From assembly GCA_019747905.1 (NCBI GenBank), contig JAIEQG010000020.1, positions 1-64,000 on the forward strand: DNA of 64,000 nt. Reading direction: 5' to 3'. The notes under the pieces were generated by a model. It worked only from the letters and a program-made list of their open reading frames with translations. It was not told where the DNA came from and did not search any database. Source of the DNA: Burkholderiales bacterium (GTDB taxonomy: Bacteria; Pseudomonadota; Gammaproteobacteria; Burkholderiales; Ga0077523). Every line of letters starts with the position of its first letter. Within the stretch, counting starts at the first letter, position 1. The position numbers and the translations under genes were made by a program. This document shows positions 15,084 to 47,842 of this stretch, one piece after another.

Positions 15084-15173
15084 CCCCCACCCCAACCCTC
15101 CCCCGGCACAGCCGGGGGAGGGAGCCGTACACCCCTTCCCCCACCTTTGGTGGGGGAAGGTCGGGATGGGGGC
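15084..15173. repeat. Family A palindromic repeat (copy 2)
   Basis: Paired hairpin modules: CCCTCCCCCGGCACAGCCGGG and CCCCCACCTTTGGTGGGGG, ending GGTCGGGATGGGGG. It lies in the 141-bp gap between lutA and lutB and could form a strong RNA structure within the operon transcript. Confidence 0.85.
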
Positions 15174-21294: not shown

Positions 21295-21473
21295 CCCCCA
21301 CCCCAACCCTCCCCCGGCACAGCCGGGGGAGGGGGTGTACACCCCTTCCCCCACCTTCGGTGGGGGAAGGTCGGGATGGGGGCCACCCGAGACCACGGCG
21401 ATCAGCTCTACCGATCGCCGCACTCCTCTCCTTCCCCCGCGCGAGCAGCGTGGGGGAAGGCCGGGATGGGGGC
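21295..21473. repeat. Family A palindromic repeat array (copy 3)
   Basis: A full two-module element (21295-21382), then a further hairpin module (21428-21473, CCCCCGCGCGAGCAGCGTGG centre). Sits between the czcB- and czcA-type genes inside an operon. Confidence 0.85.
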
Positions 21474-38340: not shown

Positions 38341-38693
38341 ATCGTCTCGGAGATTTCGCCGTGTGCCGCGTAGTGAAGGAAGTGCCAGCGCGCTTCGCTC
38401 GAAGCGTTGCTCGTTCGCGCCGATCGCGCGGCTGACTTCCGCACCACCGCGTGCTCGCGCACGAGGAACCTCATATGTCAGGCGAGGAATCCATCGCCCG
38501 AGCAGGGAGGTCGTCCGCACGCCGCCGCGAATAGCGCGGCGGTGTGCAGACCAGCAAGTCACGCCTCGTCGTCAGACGCGGGTGCGCTCCCCGTGCGTCA
38601 CCGCGGCGCGCGCGTTGCCGGATCCATCGGCATGTCGGGCGCTCCGGTCTTCGAGATTGCAGGGTCCAGACCATCTGACAAGGAGGATGCGAC

Positions 38694-39647
38694 ATGGGCA
38701 CCAGGAACAAACTGCTGTGGGCCGCCAACGCGCTTGCACTCGCGGCGACGGTCACTTTCGCGCCCGGAGCATGGGCGCTCTACGTGGGCATGTACGCGAT
38801 CGGCGACAACGTGCCGGTCGCTTCCGGCGGCTGCGGCGGCGATGACCGGCCTTCGTGGCCGGGCATGGCGCAGGCGTGGTGGGACGAGATGGGCGCGAAG
38901 GGTCACTACCAGGGGCCGGCGGCCAATCGCTACAAGTACGTCGACGGCAACATGATCGTGCGGCGCTTCTGCGATCCCCAGTTCGACGCCGACTGCCGCG
39001 ACTACCAGTCGTCCTATCCCGCGGGCGTGGACTGGATGGACGCCGCGATCATCGCCACCCACGGTTGGGACGACGGCGATCACTGGGGCGGGATCATGCG
39101 CTGGCCTGACCCGGCGGTGAGCAATGAATGCGCGCTGCGGTTCGGCGGCTCGTCGACGCAATCGCGCTGGGGCGATTCGTATCTGATGTTCGTGATCGCT
39201 TCGTCGTGCCAGAGCGCGGACGACGACAACCTGAACGGGATCCGCTTCCGCATGCAGGACACCGCAACTTCCAGCTCGCGGCGCATGCACCAGTTCGATG
39301 GCTTCCACGGAATCATGTACATCTCGTCGAGCTTCAACGGCGACTACAAGGAGACGGCGAAGGACGGCCACTCGGGTTCGATCGCCAATGCGTGGGTCAC
39401 CAACCACTTCAAGAACAACTCGGTGGGCTGCGCGGGCTACGACCCGTGGAACTGGTTCGGCACCTGCCAGGACCAGTGCCCGATCGCGTACTCGATCGGT
39501 TCCAGCGGCGCCGACGCCCAGTACCGCCTGCTGAACGAACGCTACAACTACACGTTCAGCGACCCGACCAGCGTGAACTACTACTGGTACATGTACTACG
39601 AGGGCTGCAACCCGGTCGGCGAGAACACCTTCGGCTCGGCGGATTGA
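38694..39647 (+). CDS. Secreted DUF6345-like protein with possible His/Cys dyad
   Basis: 317 residues with a signal peptide (ANALALAATVTFAPGAWA). The mature part has the layout seen in DUF6345: WWDEMGAKGH, then AAIIATHGWDDGDHW, then SYLMFVIASSCQSADDD. His123 and Cys172 each follow a hydrophobic strand, as the catalytic dyad of clan CD (caspase/gingipain-like) peptidases does; this is my inference, not an established activity. Nine cysteines suggest disulfides in the periplasm or outside. Excellent AAGGAGG before ATG at 38694. First gene of a secreted module with a PEP-CTERM protein and a DsbA-like protein. Confidence 0.75.
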   Translation: MGTRNKLLWAANALALAATVTFAPGAWALYVGMYAIGDNVPVASGGCGGDDRPSWPGMAQAWWDEMGAKGHYQGPAANRYKYVDGNMIVRRFCDPQFDADCRDYQSSYPAGVDWMDAAIIATHGWDDGDHWGGIMRWPDPAVSNECALRFGGSSTQSRWGDSYLMFVIASSCQSADDDNLNGIRFRMQDTATSSSRRMHQFDGFHGIMYISSSFNGDYKETAKDGHSGSIANAWVTNHFKNNSVGCAGYDPWNWFGTCQDQCPIAYSIGSSGADAQYRLLNERYNYTFSDPTSVNYYWYMYYEGCNPVGENTFGSAD

Positions 39648-39708
39648 ACCTGCCGCGCTGCGCCTGCGCCTCGAGCGCACGTCCACTCAATCTCATCGGA
39701 GCACTTCC

Positions 39709-40830
39709 ATGAAACGCTTCCAGCACGCCGTGCCGGTGATCATCGCCGGCCTGATCCTGGCCGCGGCCAATCCGGCCTTCGCCCAGAAAAGAGAATTCCA
39801 GAGCAAGGAAGAACTCGCGGGCTTCCTCCGCGAACGCATGCCCGACTTCCTGAAAAGCGACGAGCAACTGAAAAACCTCGTCGGACAGATTCTCAAGGCC
39901 CCGCTCGCCCCGCCGTTGCGCGAGACCTTCGATCCGAACAAGGCATTGAAGGCGCTCATTCCCGACGGCACCAGCGTGCCGTCCACCGACTGCCGGCGCA
40001 CCAGCACCCCGGGCGGTGAACGCGATCCGGGCGACTGCACCGCCACCGTCGGCGACGAAGGCGGGGCCGGGGCATTCACGCGGTTCAGCCACAGCAAGAG
40101 CATCGGCTTTGGCAACATCAAGCTCATCAAGCGTCCGCCGATTCCGCCGCAGCCGCCCGAGCCGGACAAGCTGCCCGCGGTAAAGGTGACCGATGCGCAG
40201 GCGCTGGACGAGGCACTCAAGCTGCTCACCGAAGTCCTCGGCCTGCCCAAGTCGGAACTGCCGTTGCCGCCGGCCGGCGCCAAGGGCGGGCTGCCGGTGC
40301 GGAGCCTCAACGTGCAGGGAGGCGAAGACGGCAAGCTCGGAACGCCCATCACGATCCAGAAGGTCGTGTTCCTGCAACGCGGCTTCCAGCTCGGCTCCCC
40401 GATTCCGGCCGGACCGACATCGCTCACGCACATTCCGGGGCCGGGCAAGGCCATGGTGATGTACGGGGCGGACGGTCTCGCCGGATTGTCGGTGCAGGGT
40501 TGGCAGGAACTGCGCGTGGACCCTGACATCAGCGCGAGCGACACCAAGTCCGGCGCGCAGCTGATGGAAGAGATCGCCGAGGACCTGTTCAACGACGGCG
40601 TGCGCAACGCGGCCGACATCCGGATGGGAGCCATCGTCAGCAGCGACCAGCGCAACCAGATCGGCCTGCTGCTGCCGGCCGTCCAGGTATTCGTGCTGCC
40701 GGTACCGGACGCACTGAGTGAGGACGGCCAGCGCCAGTTCGCCGGTCAGACCACCGCCGGACTGATCCGCGAGTACCCGCTGGTCAACCGCAAGGAGACC
40801 TCGCCTCTCGGTCGCCCGCGCGGCGAGTGA
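39709..40830 (+). CDS. Hypothetical secreted protein of the DUF6345/PEP-CTERM module
   Basis: 373 residues with a signal peptide (VPVIIAGLILAAANPAFA). No family recognised. Residues 30-75 are helical (SKEELAGFLRERMPDFLKS), a proline-rich linker is near 145-160 (RPPIPPQPPEPDKLP), and the C-terminal half is mixed alpha/beta. Only one cysteine pair (about 96 and 110). GGAG before ATG. It lies 61 bp after the DUF6345 gene and 77 bp before the PEP-CTERM gene, all in one direction, so the three products may act together at the cell surface. Confidence 0.65.
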   Translation: MKRFQHAVPVIIAGLILAAANPAFAQKREFQSKEELAGFLRERMPDFLKSDEQLKNLVGQILKAPLAPPLRETFDPNKALKALIPDGTSVPSTDCRRTSTPGGERDPGDCTATVGDEGGAGAFTRFSHSKSIGFGNIKLIKRPPIPPQPPEPDKLPAVKVTDAQALDEALKLLTEVLGLPKSELPLPPAGAKGGLPVRSLNVQGGEDGKLGTPITIQKVVFLQRGFQLGSPIPAGPTSLTHIPGPGKAMVMYGADGLAGLSVQGWQELRVDPDISASDTKSGAQLMEEIAEDLFNDGVRNAADIRMGAIVSSDQRNQIGLLLPAVQVFVLPVPDALSEDGQRQFAGQTTAGLIREYPLVNRKETSPLGRPRGE

Positions 40831-40907
40831 CGCCGCGGTCGAGAAATTCCAAGCCGGCGCGCAGCAGCGCGCCGGCGCCGAATCAGGAACCCACAGGGAG
40901 TTCAATC

Positions 40908-41705
40908 ATGCGTAAGCAACGCTTGTCGCAAATCACCGGCGCGCTCGCGCTCGTCGCGGGCATCGCCGCCACGGGCCCGGCCGCGGCCGCCATCAACCTC
41001 GGACCGCAGGGCGACGACCTGCAGAACGGCGCTTTCAACCAGATGAGTTTCGGCGCAGCGGGCCGCGCCAACATCCTGCCGCTGCTCTACGTCGGCGATC
41101 TGGGCGGCACCGGATCGGCGAAGAGCTTCGTCGGCGGCACCGACCTCTCCTTCGACTACGACATCGTCGGCCTCGGCACCTCGATCGTGACCGTCACCTA
41201 TATGGTGACCAATGACGAGTTCGGCAGCGGCGCGTTCAACGACCTGCGGTTGATGGTCGACACGCGCGCGAAAGGCGATCCGGCGGCACTCGACACGGCA
41301 GCTGCCGTCGGCTTCGGCGCAGCGCCCGGTCCCGGGCAGGCCGTTCAGTTTCGCGTGTTCGACGCAGGCGCTGCGGGCGATTCGCCGGTCACCCAGATCA
41401 TCAACGCCAATGGCCTGAACGGTGCGAACGCGTGCGGCGCCGGTTGCATCCCCGAAATGGCGTTGCAGTGGAACCGCGCCTCGCTCGATACGGGCGAGAC
41501 GTGGACCGTGAGCTTCCAGCTCATCGACGATCCGTCCCTCGTGGCCGGTGGCCGCTACCTGCAATCCACGTCGTTGGGCGCGGGCGGCGCAGAGCTCGTC
41601 TTCGGCAACCCGGTGCCGGTGCCCGAACCCGGCACCTATGCGTTGCTGTTCGCCGGTCTTGGCATGTTGGCGCTCGCCCGTCGGCGTCGGCGCGCGATTG
41701 CCTGA
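40908..41705 (+). CDS. PEP-CTERM sorting domain protein
   Basis: 265 residues from ATG at 40908 with GGGAG upstream. Signal peptide (ALALVAGIAATGPAAAA), beta-rich middle, and the tripartite C-terminal signal VPEPGTYALLFAGLGMLALA followed by RRRRR. The VPEP motif directs cleavage and surface delivery by exosortase in exopolysaccharide-forming proteobacteria; no exosortase gene is in the window. The ORF stays open to 40827, but that part lacks a start with ribosome site and would hide the signal peptide. Confidence 0.92.
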   Translation: MRKQRLSQITGALALVAGIAATGPAAAAINLGPQGDDLQNGAFNQMSFGAAGRANILPLLYVGDLGGTGSAKSFVGGTDLSFDYDIVGLGTSIVTVTYMVTNDEFGSGAFNDLRLMVDTRAKGDPAALDTAAAVGFGAAPGPGQAVQFRVFDAGAAGDSPVTQIINANGLNGANACGAGCIPEMALQWNRASLDTGETWTVSFQLIDDPSLVAGGRYLQSTSLGAGGAELVFGNPVPVPEPGTYALLFAGLGMLALARRRRRAIA

Positions 41706-41765: not shown

Positions 41766-42533
41766 ATGAAGCCACGACATCCGCTTGCCATCCTGCTGAC
41801 AGCCAGTCTGCTGTCGATCCCGACGTGGTCGATCGCAGCTGACCGGGTCGGTCCACCATCGAGCGATGAAGTGCGTGCGCTGCGCGATGAAGTGCGCACG
41901 CTGCAGCAGGACATGCGCGATCTGAAGCAGGCGCTGGCAGCGCGGCGCGCCGGCGGGTGGGAGAAGGTCGACGCAGTCGTGGGTCCTGAGGACAGCCCGC
42001 AGCTCGGCGCCCAGGACGCGCGACTGGTGCTGATCGAGTTCTCCGATTACCAATGCCCGTATTGCGTGCGCCATTACACCGAGACGTTCAAGCAACTCGA
42101 ACGCGACTACATCGCCGCCGGCAAGCTGCGCTACGTGGTGGCCGAGATGCCGATCGCGCAGATTCACCCGCTCGCCTCGAAAGCCGCCGAAGCCGCACGC
42201 TGCGCGCGCGAACAGGGCAAGTTCTGGGAGATGCACGGGCGATTGTTCTCGAATCCGCGGCAGCTCGAACCGTGGTCAGCGCATGCCGAGGCGCTGGGCC
42301 TCGATGCCGGCGCGTTCCAGTCGTGCCTCGATTCCGGGCGTCACGCGGAAGAGATCACGCGCAATGCCGCGGCTGCCCAGCAAAGCGGCATCTCGAGCAC
42401 GCCGACGTTCCTGCTCGGCATCGCGACGGGCGACACCGTCCGCGTTGTACGGCGGTTGCGCGGGGCTGCACCCTATGCCGCGTTCAAGGCGGAGATCGAT
42501 GCATTGCTGGCGGAGCCGGTGGCGTTGAAGTAG
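41766..42533 (+). CDS. Periplasmic DsbA-family thiol-disulfide oxidoreductase
   Basis: 255 residues, signal peptide (ILLTASLLSIPTWSIA), a short coiled coil (EVRALRDEVRTLQQDMRDLKQAL, 35-58), then a thioredoxin fold with active site CPYC (97-100, SDYQCPYCVRHY) and cis-Pro loop ISSTPTFLLG. The DSBA/Thioredoxin_4 type oxidises or isomerises disulfides in exported proteins. Position directly after the cysteine-rich secreted module suggests these are clients. The N-terminal coiled coil may drive dimerisation as in DsbG/ScsC relatives. Confidence 0.9.
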   Translation: MKPRHPLAILLTASLLSIPTWSIAADRVGPPSSDEVRALRDEVRTLQQDMRDLKQALAARRAGGWEKVDAVVGPEDSPQLGAQDARLVLIEFSDYQCPYCVRHYTETFKQLERDYIAAGKLRYVVAEMPIAQIHPLASKAAEAARCAREQGKFWEMHGRLFSNPRQLEPWSAHAEALGLDAGAFQSCLDSGRHAEEITRNAAAAQQSGISSTPTFLLGIATGDTVRVVRRLRGAAPYAAFKAEIDALLAEPVALK

Positions 42534-42546
42534 TTGCGGTAGCTGG

Positions 42547-42660
42547 CCCCCATCCCAGCCTTCCCCCATCTACGATGGGGGAAGGAGTGCAAGGGGTTGG
42601 CGTCGCGCTGGGAAGTACACCCCTTCCCCCAGCTTTGCTGGGGGAAGGTTGGGATGGGGG
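42547..42660. repeat. Family A palindromic repeat (copy 6)
   Basis: Two modules with different cores: CCCCCATCTACGATGGGGG and CCCCCAGCTTTGCTGGGGG, separated by 28 bp. The cores differ but each stem compensates, as expected for a selected hairpin. Confidence 0.85.
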
Positions 42661-43846: not shown

Positions 43847-43936
43847 CCCCCACCCCAGCCCTCCCCCGACGAAGTCGGGGGAGGGGGTGTACGACTCCCT
43901 CCCCCAGCACAGCTGGGGGAGGGTTGGGGTGGGGGC
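43847..43936. repeat. Family A palindromic repeat (copy 7)
   Basis: Modules CCCCCGACGAAGTCGGGGG and CCCCCAGCACAGCTGGGGG with the usual flanks. It occupies the gap between two co-directional genes. Confidence 0.85.
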
Positions 43937-44889: not shown

Positions 44890-45477
44890 ATGAAAGCATC
44901 CACGAGCCGCTGCATCGACATTGTCCTGCATGCCGGTATGTTCGCGCTGGCGCTGACCGCAGGACACGCGCTTGCCGCGGAGGGCGATCCCGCCGCCGGC
45001 AAGCGCAAGACCGTCACTTGCAACGGCTGCCACGGGCAAACCGCAATGAAGAGCGTGCCGAGCCTCGGCGGCCAGAGCCCGGCGTACTTCGTGGCAGCGA
45101 TGATCGCCTACCAGGATGGCGTGCGCACCCACGCCACCATGCGCGACGTCGCGAAAGCATGGTCGCTGCAGGACCTGAAGAACTTCGCAGCGTGGTATGC
45201 GGAGCCGCTGGCGCCCGCGACTGAAGGCGCAGCTGGGCCGCGTTCGTCAGAACGCTGCGCGGCGTGTCACGGTGCCGACGGCCGCGATGCGGTGTCGCCC
45301 GACGTGCCACGCATCGCGGGGCAGAAGGTGAACTATCTCGAGCAGGTGCTGCGCGAGTACCGTGGCGGCACTCGGGTGCACGCCGTGATGCAGCCGCAAG
45401 CGGCCGATCTGACGGACGACGATATTGCTGCGCTCGCTCGTCACTTCGCCGGGCGGGCGGGGCTGCAGGTGAAGTAG
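44890..45477 (+). CDS. Periplasmic dihaem cytochrome c (c4-like)
   Basis: 195 residues with signal peptide ending near HALAA. Two haem sites CNGCH (44-48) and CAACH (123-127), each in a class I domain of about 75 residues; methionine ligands are likely MRD and MQP. The size and two-domain layout match cytochrome c4 that passes electrons from bc1 to oxidases. Start 44890 with GGAG upstream. It may receive electrons from a product of the upstream gene's pathway or simply share its transcript. Confidence 0.9.
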   Translation: MKASTSRCIDIVLHAGMFALALTAGHALAAEGDPAAGKRKTVTCNGCHGQTAMKSVPSLGGQSPAYFVAAMIAYQDGVRTHATMRDVAKAWSLQDLKNFAAWYAEPLAPATEGAAGPRSSERCAACHGADGRDAVSPDVPRIAGQKVNYLEQVLREYRGGTRVHAVMQPQAADLTDDDIAALARHFAGRAGLQVK

Positions 45478-45481
45478 TCTG

Positions 45482-45573
45482 CCCCCATCCCAACCTTCCC
45501 CCAGCGAAGCTGGGGGAAGGAGCTGTACATCCCCTCCCCCACGCGCAGCGTGGGGGAGGGTTAGGGTGGGGGC
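45482..45573. repeat. Family A palindromic repeat (copy 8)
   Basis: Modules CCCCCAGCGAAGCTGGGGG and CCCCCACGCGCAGCGTGGG between the convergent cytochrome and methyltransferase genes, where it could act as a bidirectional terminator. Confidence 0.85.
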
Positions 45574-46451: not shown

Positions 46452-46771
46452 GATGAAACCTCCGTGATTCGATGTAGGGGATGAATCCGCCTCGCTTGCC
46501 GCTTCGGCGTCTCAAGGCTGGCGCATTGTGTCGATCGCCCCCGCTCGATACTCGGCTGCGCGTCGACGTGATTTGTCCGATCGTCCGGAGTTGCGGCAGC
46601 GGCTTGACCGAGGCACCGGCGCACTTGATCGACACTCCGGAGATACCGTTTTCGGTCGGTCCGCGGCGGGCCGCCAACGCCGGTCGCGACGTCGATTACC
46701 ATAGCGATACAACACGGGCCATGGTCGTACGGCTACGGCACGGCCCCGAACCGACGGAGGAGAACCCAGCC

Positions 46772-47842
46772 ATGCGCAAGGCCCTGCTCGCGACGACCGT
46801 CGCATCCACCCTCGCCCTCGCCACCTTCGGCAGCGTCATTGCCGGAGACGACGCCGACAACGCGCTGCTCACCCGGGCACGGGCGCTGTTCAAGCCCTTG
46901 CCTGCGGACGCGAGCACGCCCGAACGCCCGATCACGCCCCAGCTTGTCGCACTGGGGCGCGCCCTCTTCTTCGAGACCCGCGTCTCGACCGACGGCAAGC
47001 AAAGCTGCGGCGAATGCCACCAGCCCATGTACTACGGCACCGACGCCCTGCCGCGCTCCGTCGGCAACTCGGGGAAGGTTCTGCCGCGCAACGTGCCCAC
47101 GGTGTTCAACACCGCACTGCAGTTCTCGCAGCACTACGGCGGCAACCGCGTGGACGTCGAAGAGCAGGCGCTGAAGGCGCTGGTGAGTCCGCTCGCCTAC
47201 GGCAACAAGGATTTCGCGGCGGCCGAGGCGCGCCTGCGGGCGATTCCCGGTTACCGCCCGCAATTCGAGCAGGCCTTCCCGGGCCAGGCCGAACCCGTCA
47301 CCGCCGAGAACTGGAGCAAGGCGATCGGCGCGTACGAACGCACGCTGCTGACGCCCGCCCCCTTCGATCGATTTCTTGCCGGTGACACCGCCGCGCTGGG
47401 CGCGCAGGCGAAACAGGGCCTCGACAAGTTCATCGGCATCGGCTGTGCCGGCTGCCACAACGGCGTCGCCGTCGGCGGGCAGATGTACCAGAAGTTCGGC
47501 CTGACCCAGGACTACTGGAACCTGACGGGTAGCACCGAGATCGACATCTTCAAGGGCCGCGACAAGGGCCGCTTCCAGGACACCAAGAAGGACGAGGACG
47601 CGTTCATCTTCAAGGTGCAGCAGTTGCGCAACGTGGCCGTGACGCCGCCCTACTTCCACGACGGTTCCGTGGCGGAATTGCCCGATGCCGTGCGCGTGAT
47701 GGGCAAGCTGCAACTGGGCCGTGATCTCTCCGACGGCGACGTCGCCGACATCGTCGCCTTCCTCGAAAGCCTCACAGGCGAAGTGCCGGCGCAGTTCGCG
47801 GCGGTGCCGAGCCTGCCGATCGGGGGTTACAAGCGGCAGTGA
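46772..47842 (+). CDS. Dihaem cytochrome c peroxidase (CcpA/MauG family)
   Basis: 356 residues, signal peptide (LLATTVASTLALATFGSVIA). Haem sites CGECH (79-83) and CAGCH (225-229), with the spacing typical of bacterial peroxidases, plus PRNVPTVFNTALQF and RNVAVTPPYFHDGSV that hold haem contacts. It reduces hydrogen peroxide in the periplasm with electrons from a small cytochrome c. ATG at 46772 follows GGAGGAG. The dihaem c4-like protein upstream could be a donor. Confidence 0.93.
   Translation: MRKALLATTVASTLALATFGSVIAGDDADNALLTRARALFKPLPADASTPERPITPQLVALGRALFFETRVSTDGKQSCGECHQPMYYGTDALPRSVGNSGKVLPRNVPTVFNTALQFSQHYGGNRVDVEEQALKALVSPLAYGNKDFAAAEARLRAIPGYRPQFEQAFPGQAEPVTAENWSKAIGAYERTLLTPAPFDRFLAGDTAALGAQAKQGLDKFIGIGCAGCHNGVAVGGQMYQKFGLTQDYWNLTGSTEIDIFKGRDKGRFQDTKKDEDAFIFKVQQLRNVAVTPPYFHDGSVAELPDAVRVMGKLQLGRDLSDGDVADIVAFLESLTGEVPAQFAAVPSLPIGGYKRQ

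Follow-up and report, generated by a model that had tools for sequence, protein, structure and literature searches.

A predicted caspase-fold DUF6345 protein and its PepSY-type partner in an exported protein locus of a Burkholderiales bacterium

Results

P1, P2 and P3 are the products of three plus-strand genes that lie in a row (38694-41705, with gaps of 61 and 77 bases) in the window, a stretch of 64,000 nucleotides from a Burkholderiales bacterium (assembly GCA_019747905.1, contig JAIEQG010000020.1, positions 1 to 64,000). The host of this unit is a soil/water bacterium. Our analysis suggests, with a probability of roughly 0.6, that P1 is an exported caspase-fold cysteine peptidase with a His123-Cys172 dyad, that P2 is its dedicated propeptide-like partner, and that P3 serves as anchor or target in one branch of the family.

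Predicted caspase fold of P1

P1 (38694..39647, 317 amino acids) was modelled with AlphaFold2 from 26 alignment rows, and the model reached a pLDDT of 86.1 and a pTM of 0.88. In a comparison by VIA-align, which covered 966 chains, the best match was 8tl0_B (Z 13.3, 185 residues, 3.4 Å). All 50 entries listed were CHAT, caspase, paracaspase or metacaspase structures, with Z values of 11.8-13.3, 170-193 aligned residues and deviations of 2.8-4.3 Å. A Foldseek search of the Protein Data Bank (PDB) returned SAVED-CHAT chains in the four best rows and, at lower rank, MALT1, gingipain K and caspases, among others. The elements of the model follow the order strand, helix, strand, strand-His, small strands, strand-Cys, helix, strand, two helices, strand. 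Strands at residues 89-93 and 138-142 of the mature protein are directly followed by H95 and C144, the His123 (39060..39062, motif THG, past strand beta3) and Cys172 (39207..39209, motif SSC, past strand beta4) of the precursor. The part of a review that describes the caspase fold places the catalytic dyad where beta3 and beta4 end, with small extra strands between them (PMC4357240), and the predicted element order and His/Cys positions of P1 fit this clan CD layout. As to His123 and Cys172 forming a dyad, it is only the topology of the model that fits.

An earlier note on this DNA, made from the sequence, had guessed at a clan CD peptidase from nine cysteines and from His123 and Cys172 each standing after a hydrophobic strand, and had proposed fold prediction and structure comparison as a check. 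The cysteine count was exact, the strands of the model agree with those read from the sequence, and the comparison bore out the guess, with clan CD folds in every listed VIA-align entry.

Proof of clan CD membership was also sought by sequence-profile comparison and failed, no significant E-value being obtained against either C14 or CHAT. The P1 profile gave an E-value of 0.21 against CHAT in hhalign. With nine planctomycete DUF6345 domains added to the profile, the values were 0.0024 for CHAT and 0.13 for C14; the nine domains alone gave 0.0022 for CHAT, a weak match in which the His and Cys residues fell in register, and 0.011 for C14. Since the sequence-profile comparisons of P1 were not significant, the fold assignment rests on structure.

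The genome of the window (G000) is itself rich in caspase-fold proteins: four Peptidase_C14 matches and one CHAT match were found elsewhere in it, on contigs C161, C109 and C10, one of the C14 matches overlapping the CHAT match.

Conservation of the proposed catalytic residues

The nine cysteines of P1 are at positions 47, 93, 101, 146, 172, 246, 258, 262 and 305. In the alignment of 27 P1-type proteins, His123, Gly124, Cys47, Cys146, Cys262, Cys305, His205, Asp103, Asp113, Glu282 and Tyr284 are invariant, and Cys172 is kept in 26, with a serine in the remaining protein, L017. The four invariant cysteines besides Cys172 are plausible disulfide partners. All nine planctomycete DUF6345 domains contain the HG motif and, by eye, a cysteine after the next hydrophobic strand (within QAC in one domain and QSC in two), whereas most of them lack the GFHG motif.

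These residues bear on whether P1 is an enzyme. P1 might be a caspase-fold pseudo-enzyme that acts as a surface binding or scaffold module, with P2 as a structural partner in a complex and not as an inhibitor. Caspase-fold proteins without activity exist, and L017, in which the rest of the protein is conserved and P2 is kept despite Ser172, would agree with such a role. However, few positions of P1 are as conserved as H123, G124 and C172, and His-Gly and Cys persist in the divergent planctomycete members, most of them without GFHG. We consider a pseudo-enzyme unlikely and infer that P1 is catalytic, with Cys172 as the proposed nucleophile. The Ser172 of L017 (1474-2385) is a natural variant that would be useful for testing catalysis.

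Family assignment and distribution of P1

P1 scored 34.3 bits against DUF6345 (PF19872; curated cut-off 26.9) in a whole-genome search, and two relatives also passed this cut-off (L029 with 31.2 bits, L034 with 58.5 bits); the label of the earlier note, a DUF6345-like protein, is right. The archaeon Methanosarcina acetivorans also gave a hit in the whole-genome search. In a plain hmmscan P1 matched no family, and no Pfam model, Peptidase_C14 included, at E up to 1. At E up to 1, DUF6345 was matched by 19 of the 27 aligned P1-type proteins, and the canonical DUF6345 domain of L084 matched the P1 profile with an E-value of 1.3e-6, the His and Cys residues again being aligned with each other's counterparts. 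Solved relatives were not found by sequence for P1 or P2. The open-licence PMC literature yielded no mention of DUF6345 or PF19872 and no paper with 'caspase-like' together with 'exosortase'; its papers combining PepSY and caspase looked unrelated in the portions of text available. The canonical DUF6345 proteins L084 (1492-3465) and L093 (1495-3471) have about 660 amino acids, with the DUF6345 domain at the C-terminus and a long N-terminal region that is possibly PepSY-like and may also contain an Ig-like stretch.

Carriers of P1 among whole genomes amounted to 5 of 60, 7 of 399 in the order and 2 of 299 in the phylum, each count including the genome of the window. Within the genus, 4 of 12 genomes have the family; this distribution is patchy, and P1 is therefore an accessory trait. 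Aquincola tertiaricarbonis and Roseateles toxinivorans are among the carriers that are in culture. Relatives were also obtained from 26 loci of genome contigs that were found with P1 alone. Together with the window, two more loci (L016 and L017) and ten planctomycete regions, these make up the 39 loci compared below, which are not all independent: L018 is nearly identical to the window, L037, L042 and L092 come from one assembly, and L096 and L097 are near copies. In L027 (7983-8941) the P1 reading frame is broken up into two that overlap, with P2 and P3 intact, which may reflect an assembly error or a decaying gene.

Linkage of P1 and P2

A relative of P2 (39709..40830, 373 amino acids) was found by P2 profile search directly downstream of DUF6345, or fused to it, in 32 of the 39 loci. 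Among the 1453 open reading frames (ORFs) of these loci, 32 passed the search and every one of them was a DUF6345 neighbour or fusion; the profile used (A4) had been seeded with 26 of those 32 partners. Partners outside the seed were recovered with E-values of 3e-27 and 4e-26 (L105/L106) and of 0.005 and 0.004 (L107/L108), the first unrelated ORF appearing at 0.81. A profile built from the 17 nearest P2 sequences likewise placed six other neighbours, with E-values of 8e-5 to 0.036, ahead of all unrelated ORFs, of which the first had an E-value of 0.6, and profile comparison identified three divergent partner groups as P2 relatives (E 2.2e-10, 2.3e-8 and 4.2e-11). All 300 decoy ORFs, of which the best reached 0.0047, were outscored by the downstream proteins of L094/L095 (E 4e-4) and of L098/L099 (E 4e-5). 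The pairing spans Pseudomonadota, Myxococcota, Bdellovibrionota and Planctomycetota, and it was not selected for, because only P1 or DUF6345 had been used to find the loci. Judged by these searches, P1 and P2 form a conserved pair, in which the constant partner is P2, far beyond the carriers of P3.

Seven of the 39 loci gave no passing P2 match, and two of them (L030 and L109) lie at contig ends. Two further loci have a P2-like neighbour by profile-profile comparison: in L103 and L104 the downstream protein is P2-like by hhalign only, with an E-value of 4e-4 that is better than all 300 decoys. L092 and L102 (N-terminal) and L110 (C-terminal) contain unproven candidate P2 regions in the DUF6345 polypeptide itself. 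P2 is fused behind P1 in two Phycisphaerae loci, L037 and L042, and a weak C-terminal candidate was seen in L101 (E 0.038 and 0.005). A P2-like N-terminal region in L084/L093 was not borne out by sequence (E 0.036-0.2 against P2 profiles) and is kept as a possibility only; compared with the partners of L098/L099, the same region gave an E-value of 7e-4. The PepSY-type partner of DUF6345 fusions would be located at the C-terminus and perhaps also at the N-terminus. Thrombospondin type 3 repeats follow P2 in the L042 fusion and in the separate P2 of L036.

Predicted fold of P2 and its proposed role

P2 matched no Pfam or NCBIfam family, and none of its 26 members matched a PepSY family at E up to 1. 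The AlphaFold2 model of P2 (26 rows) had a pLDDT of 85.7 and a pTM of 0.83. Foldseek returned nothing convincing for this model. By VIA-align the best match was 5coz (Z 11.6), followed by YycH (9.2 and 7.9), the C-terminal domain of YpeB (9.1), YycI (8.2), a chain of an Aspergillus extracellular metalloproteinase (7.1) and chains of vibriolysin MCP-02 (6.2 and 5.9); other folds start at Z 5.1. We take these matches to be PepSY-type and presume, from chain numbering, that the matched metalloprotease chains are propeptides. The model thus predicts a tandem PepSY-type fold for P2. According to the available text of one paper, the enzyme SleB, which is made separately, may be kept inactive by the PepSY-type protein YpeB (PMC13393411). 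YpeB with SleB provides a precedent for a protein of the PepSY type that acts on an enzyme made separately from it, as far as the accessible parts of the two sources go (PMC6660665, PMC13393411).

In the mechanism that we propose, P1 and P2 would be exported together, and P2 would assist the folding of P1 and/or block its predicted active site, in trans or, where the two are fused, in cis. P2 would later be degraded or released, freeing P1. In the branch with P3, an exosortase would sort P3 to the surface, where it may be the anchor or the target of the released P1.

The constant presence of P2 beside P1, joined by P3 in one branch, would also be expected if P2 were a substrate, P1 cleaving P2 (or P2 and P3) and thereby releasing a signal or a mature surface layer. 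Some caspase-like proteases do have a dedicated neighbouring substrate, as in the CRISPR-linked CHAT systems. However, P2 is predicted to fold like PepSY regulators and, with weaker matches, like metalloprotease propeptides, and the P2 domain also occurs fused to the peptidase domain, as propeptides do; the substrate role appears less probable still than a pseudo-enzyme. At a similarly low level we place a role of P2 solely as a foldase, and never as an inhibitor, of a disulfide-rich exported enzyme. The four invariant cysteines of P1, which are likely paired, would suit it, and metalloprotease-type propeptides serve as foldases too, but the roles of foldase and inhibitor can coexist. We retain P2 as a putative trans-acting inhibitor or propeptide of P1.

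Several observations weigh against a peptidase held by a propeptide-like partner. VIA-align rescored only chains ranked by Foldseek, and the Foldseek E-values for P1 were 0.021 or worse. The P1 profile showed no link to 12 Peptidase_C14 (PF00656) proteins (hhalign probability 0.1%, E 0.43). The matches of P2 to metalloprotease chains are modest (Z 5.9-7.1), and proteins other than protease inhibitors, such as the regulators YycH and YycI, have PepSY-type folds too. L017 has kept P2 beside a P1 with serine at position 172, and P3 is absent from many P1-P2 loci.

P3 and the exosortase

P3 (40908..41705, 265 amino acids) carries a PEP-CTERM sorting signal at residues 237-261 (41616..41690; PF07589, 33.3 bits, cut-off 20.7), and the genome of the window encodes an exosortase (PF09721, E 5.8e-68). 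The most likely start of P3 is the ATG at 40908, which gives an ordinary signal peptide, and not the upstream GTG at 40827 (292 amino acids). P3 relatives stand behind P2 in 13 of the 26 loci found with P1 alone, and the recurrence of P1, P2 and P3 relatives in the same order is more than chance. Two invariant cysteines and a QW motif are common to the 14 P3 proteins of the alignment; the sorting end is of the VP[ELV]P type in 13 of them and VPEA in L033.

In a P1 tree of 28 rows, from which L040 and the frame-broken L027 were left out and which included only L096 of the ten planctomycete regions, the P3 carriers fell within one supported set of 17 rows. This set also holds three Gammaproteobacteria without P3 and L030, whose contig ends too early to show whether P3 follows. 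P3 is a later, clade-specific addition to the P1-P2 pair. An exosortase was present in nine of ten checked genomes with P3, the tenth (G011) being 64% complete, and in five of eight checked genomes without it. The earlier note had connected a peptidase-like protein beside an exosortase substrate with processing or display at the cell surface; this can describe the P3 branch, but it concerns one branch only, the constant partner being P2.

Gene layout and surroundings of the locus

Read directly from the sequence, a ribosome-binding site, AAGGAGG (38680..38686, + strand), lies 7 bases 5' of the P1 start codon. By eye, P1, P2 and P3 all have signal-peptide-like N-termini; that of P1 comprises residues 1-28 (38694..38777) with cleavage after AWA, and its aligned relatives have hydrophobic N-termini. 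The next gene (41766-42533) encodes a DsbA-like protein (Thioredoxin_4, E 2e-25). The earlier note had described three exported proteins in a row followed by a DsbA-like protein, and the reading frames lie where it placed them. Of the conserved gene neighbourhood that it proposed to check, the P1-P2-P3 order stood, with P1-P2 wider, but the DsbA-like gene is incidental: only 2 of the 26 loci have a relative next to the trio, which rules it out as a fourth member. No other convincing conserved neighbour was found among the related loci.

Sigma-70 promoter-like sites were not found, and terminator-like sites were not in excess over shuffled sequences. A sigma-54 promoter has been mapped for the floc gene pepA, according to the available part of that work (PMC9850573); a search for a shared promoter of this style upstream of P1 gave no consistent site. 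Plasmids were not found. Further downstream are genes for a cytochrome c (44890-45477) and a MauG-like di-haem cytochrome c peroxidase (46769-47842), which do not appear to be related to the trio. A 21-base G-rich repeat, GGGGGAAGGNTGGGATGGGGG, occurs in 15 copies with at most 3 mismatches in the window, against 0.01 expected (245, 15084-15172, 21295-21472, 35224, 38262, 42547-42660, 43847-43935, 45482-45572 and 50496). The copies, which represent a dispersed palindromic element, are often arranged close to gene ends as inverted pairs with a spacing of about 70-110 bases.

Comparison with known systems

A broader reading, to which we give even odds, is that DUF6345 constitutes a widespread but so far unrecognised family of clan CD peptidases that are exported and are governed by a dedicated, separately encoded PepSY-type protein, a propeptide that has been given a gene of its own or been fused. 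DUF6345 would then have, in place of 'unknown', a testable function as a controlled protease. In the sections of a 2025 clan CD review that list the families, eight are given and DUF6345 is not among them (PMC12445089); a secreted caspase-fold family would be added outside these eight. If the proposal is true, clan CD and the protein inhibitors would each gain a new family, with P3 as surface target or anchor in one branch. The locus also offers a clue to what some PEP-CTERM proteins are for, a question not yet solved. The caspase fold would be paired with a type of domain that is otherwise seen in the propeptides of metalloproteases, and if P2 inhibits P1, a principle of control would be common to unrelated secreted proteases.

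The clan CD enzymes (caspases C14, gingipains C25, clostripain C11) and CHAT resemble P1 in predicted fold and strand order, with His-Gly after beta3 and Cys after beta4. P1 differs from them in being cysteine-rich and exported and in that a partner gene replaces an own prodomain; its profile similarity is not significant to C14 and weak to CHAT. To DUF6345 P1 is assigned by a score above the cut-off, yet plain hmmscan gave no match, and Pfam records no function for the family. The exosortase/PEP-CTERM sorting systems share with this locus the signal of P3 and the exosortase of the genome, but only one P1-P2 branch has P3. YpeB, YycH, YycI and the propeptides of M4/M36 metalloproteases are like P2 in predicted fold, whereas the partner of P2, a predicted caspase-fold protein, is neither a metalloprotease nor a lytic enzyme. 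In other clan CD families the enzyme is kept in check by regions at its own N- or C-terminus, as tabulated in the part of the review concerned (PMC4357240 Table 2), and, going by these review sections, a separately encoded propeptide-like partner would be new among clan CD enzymes.

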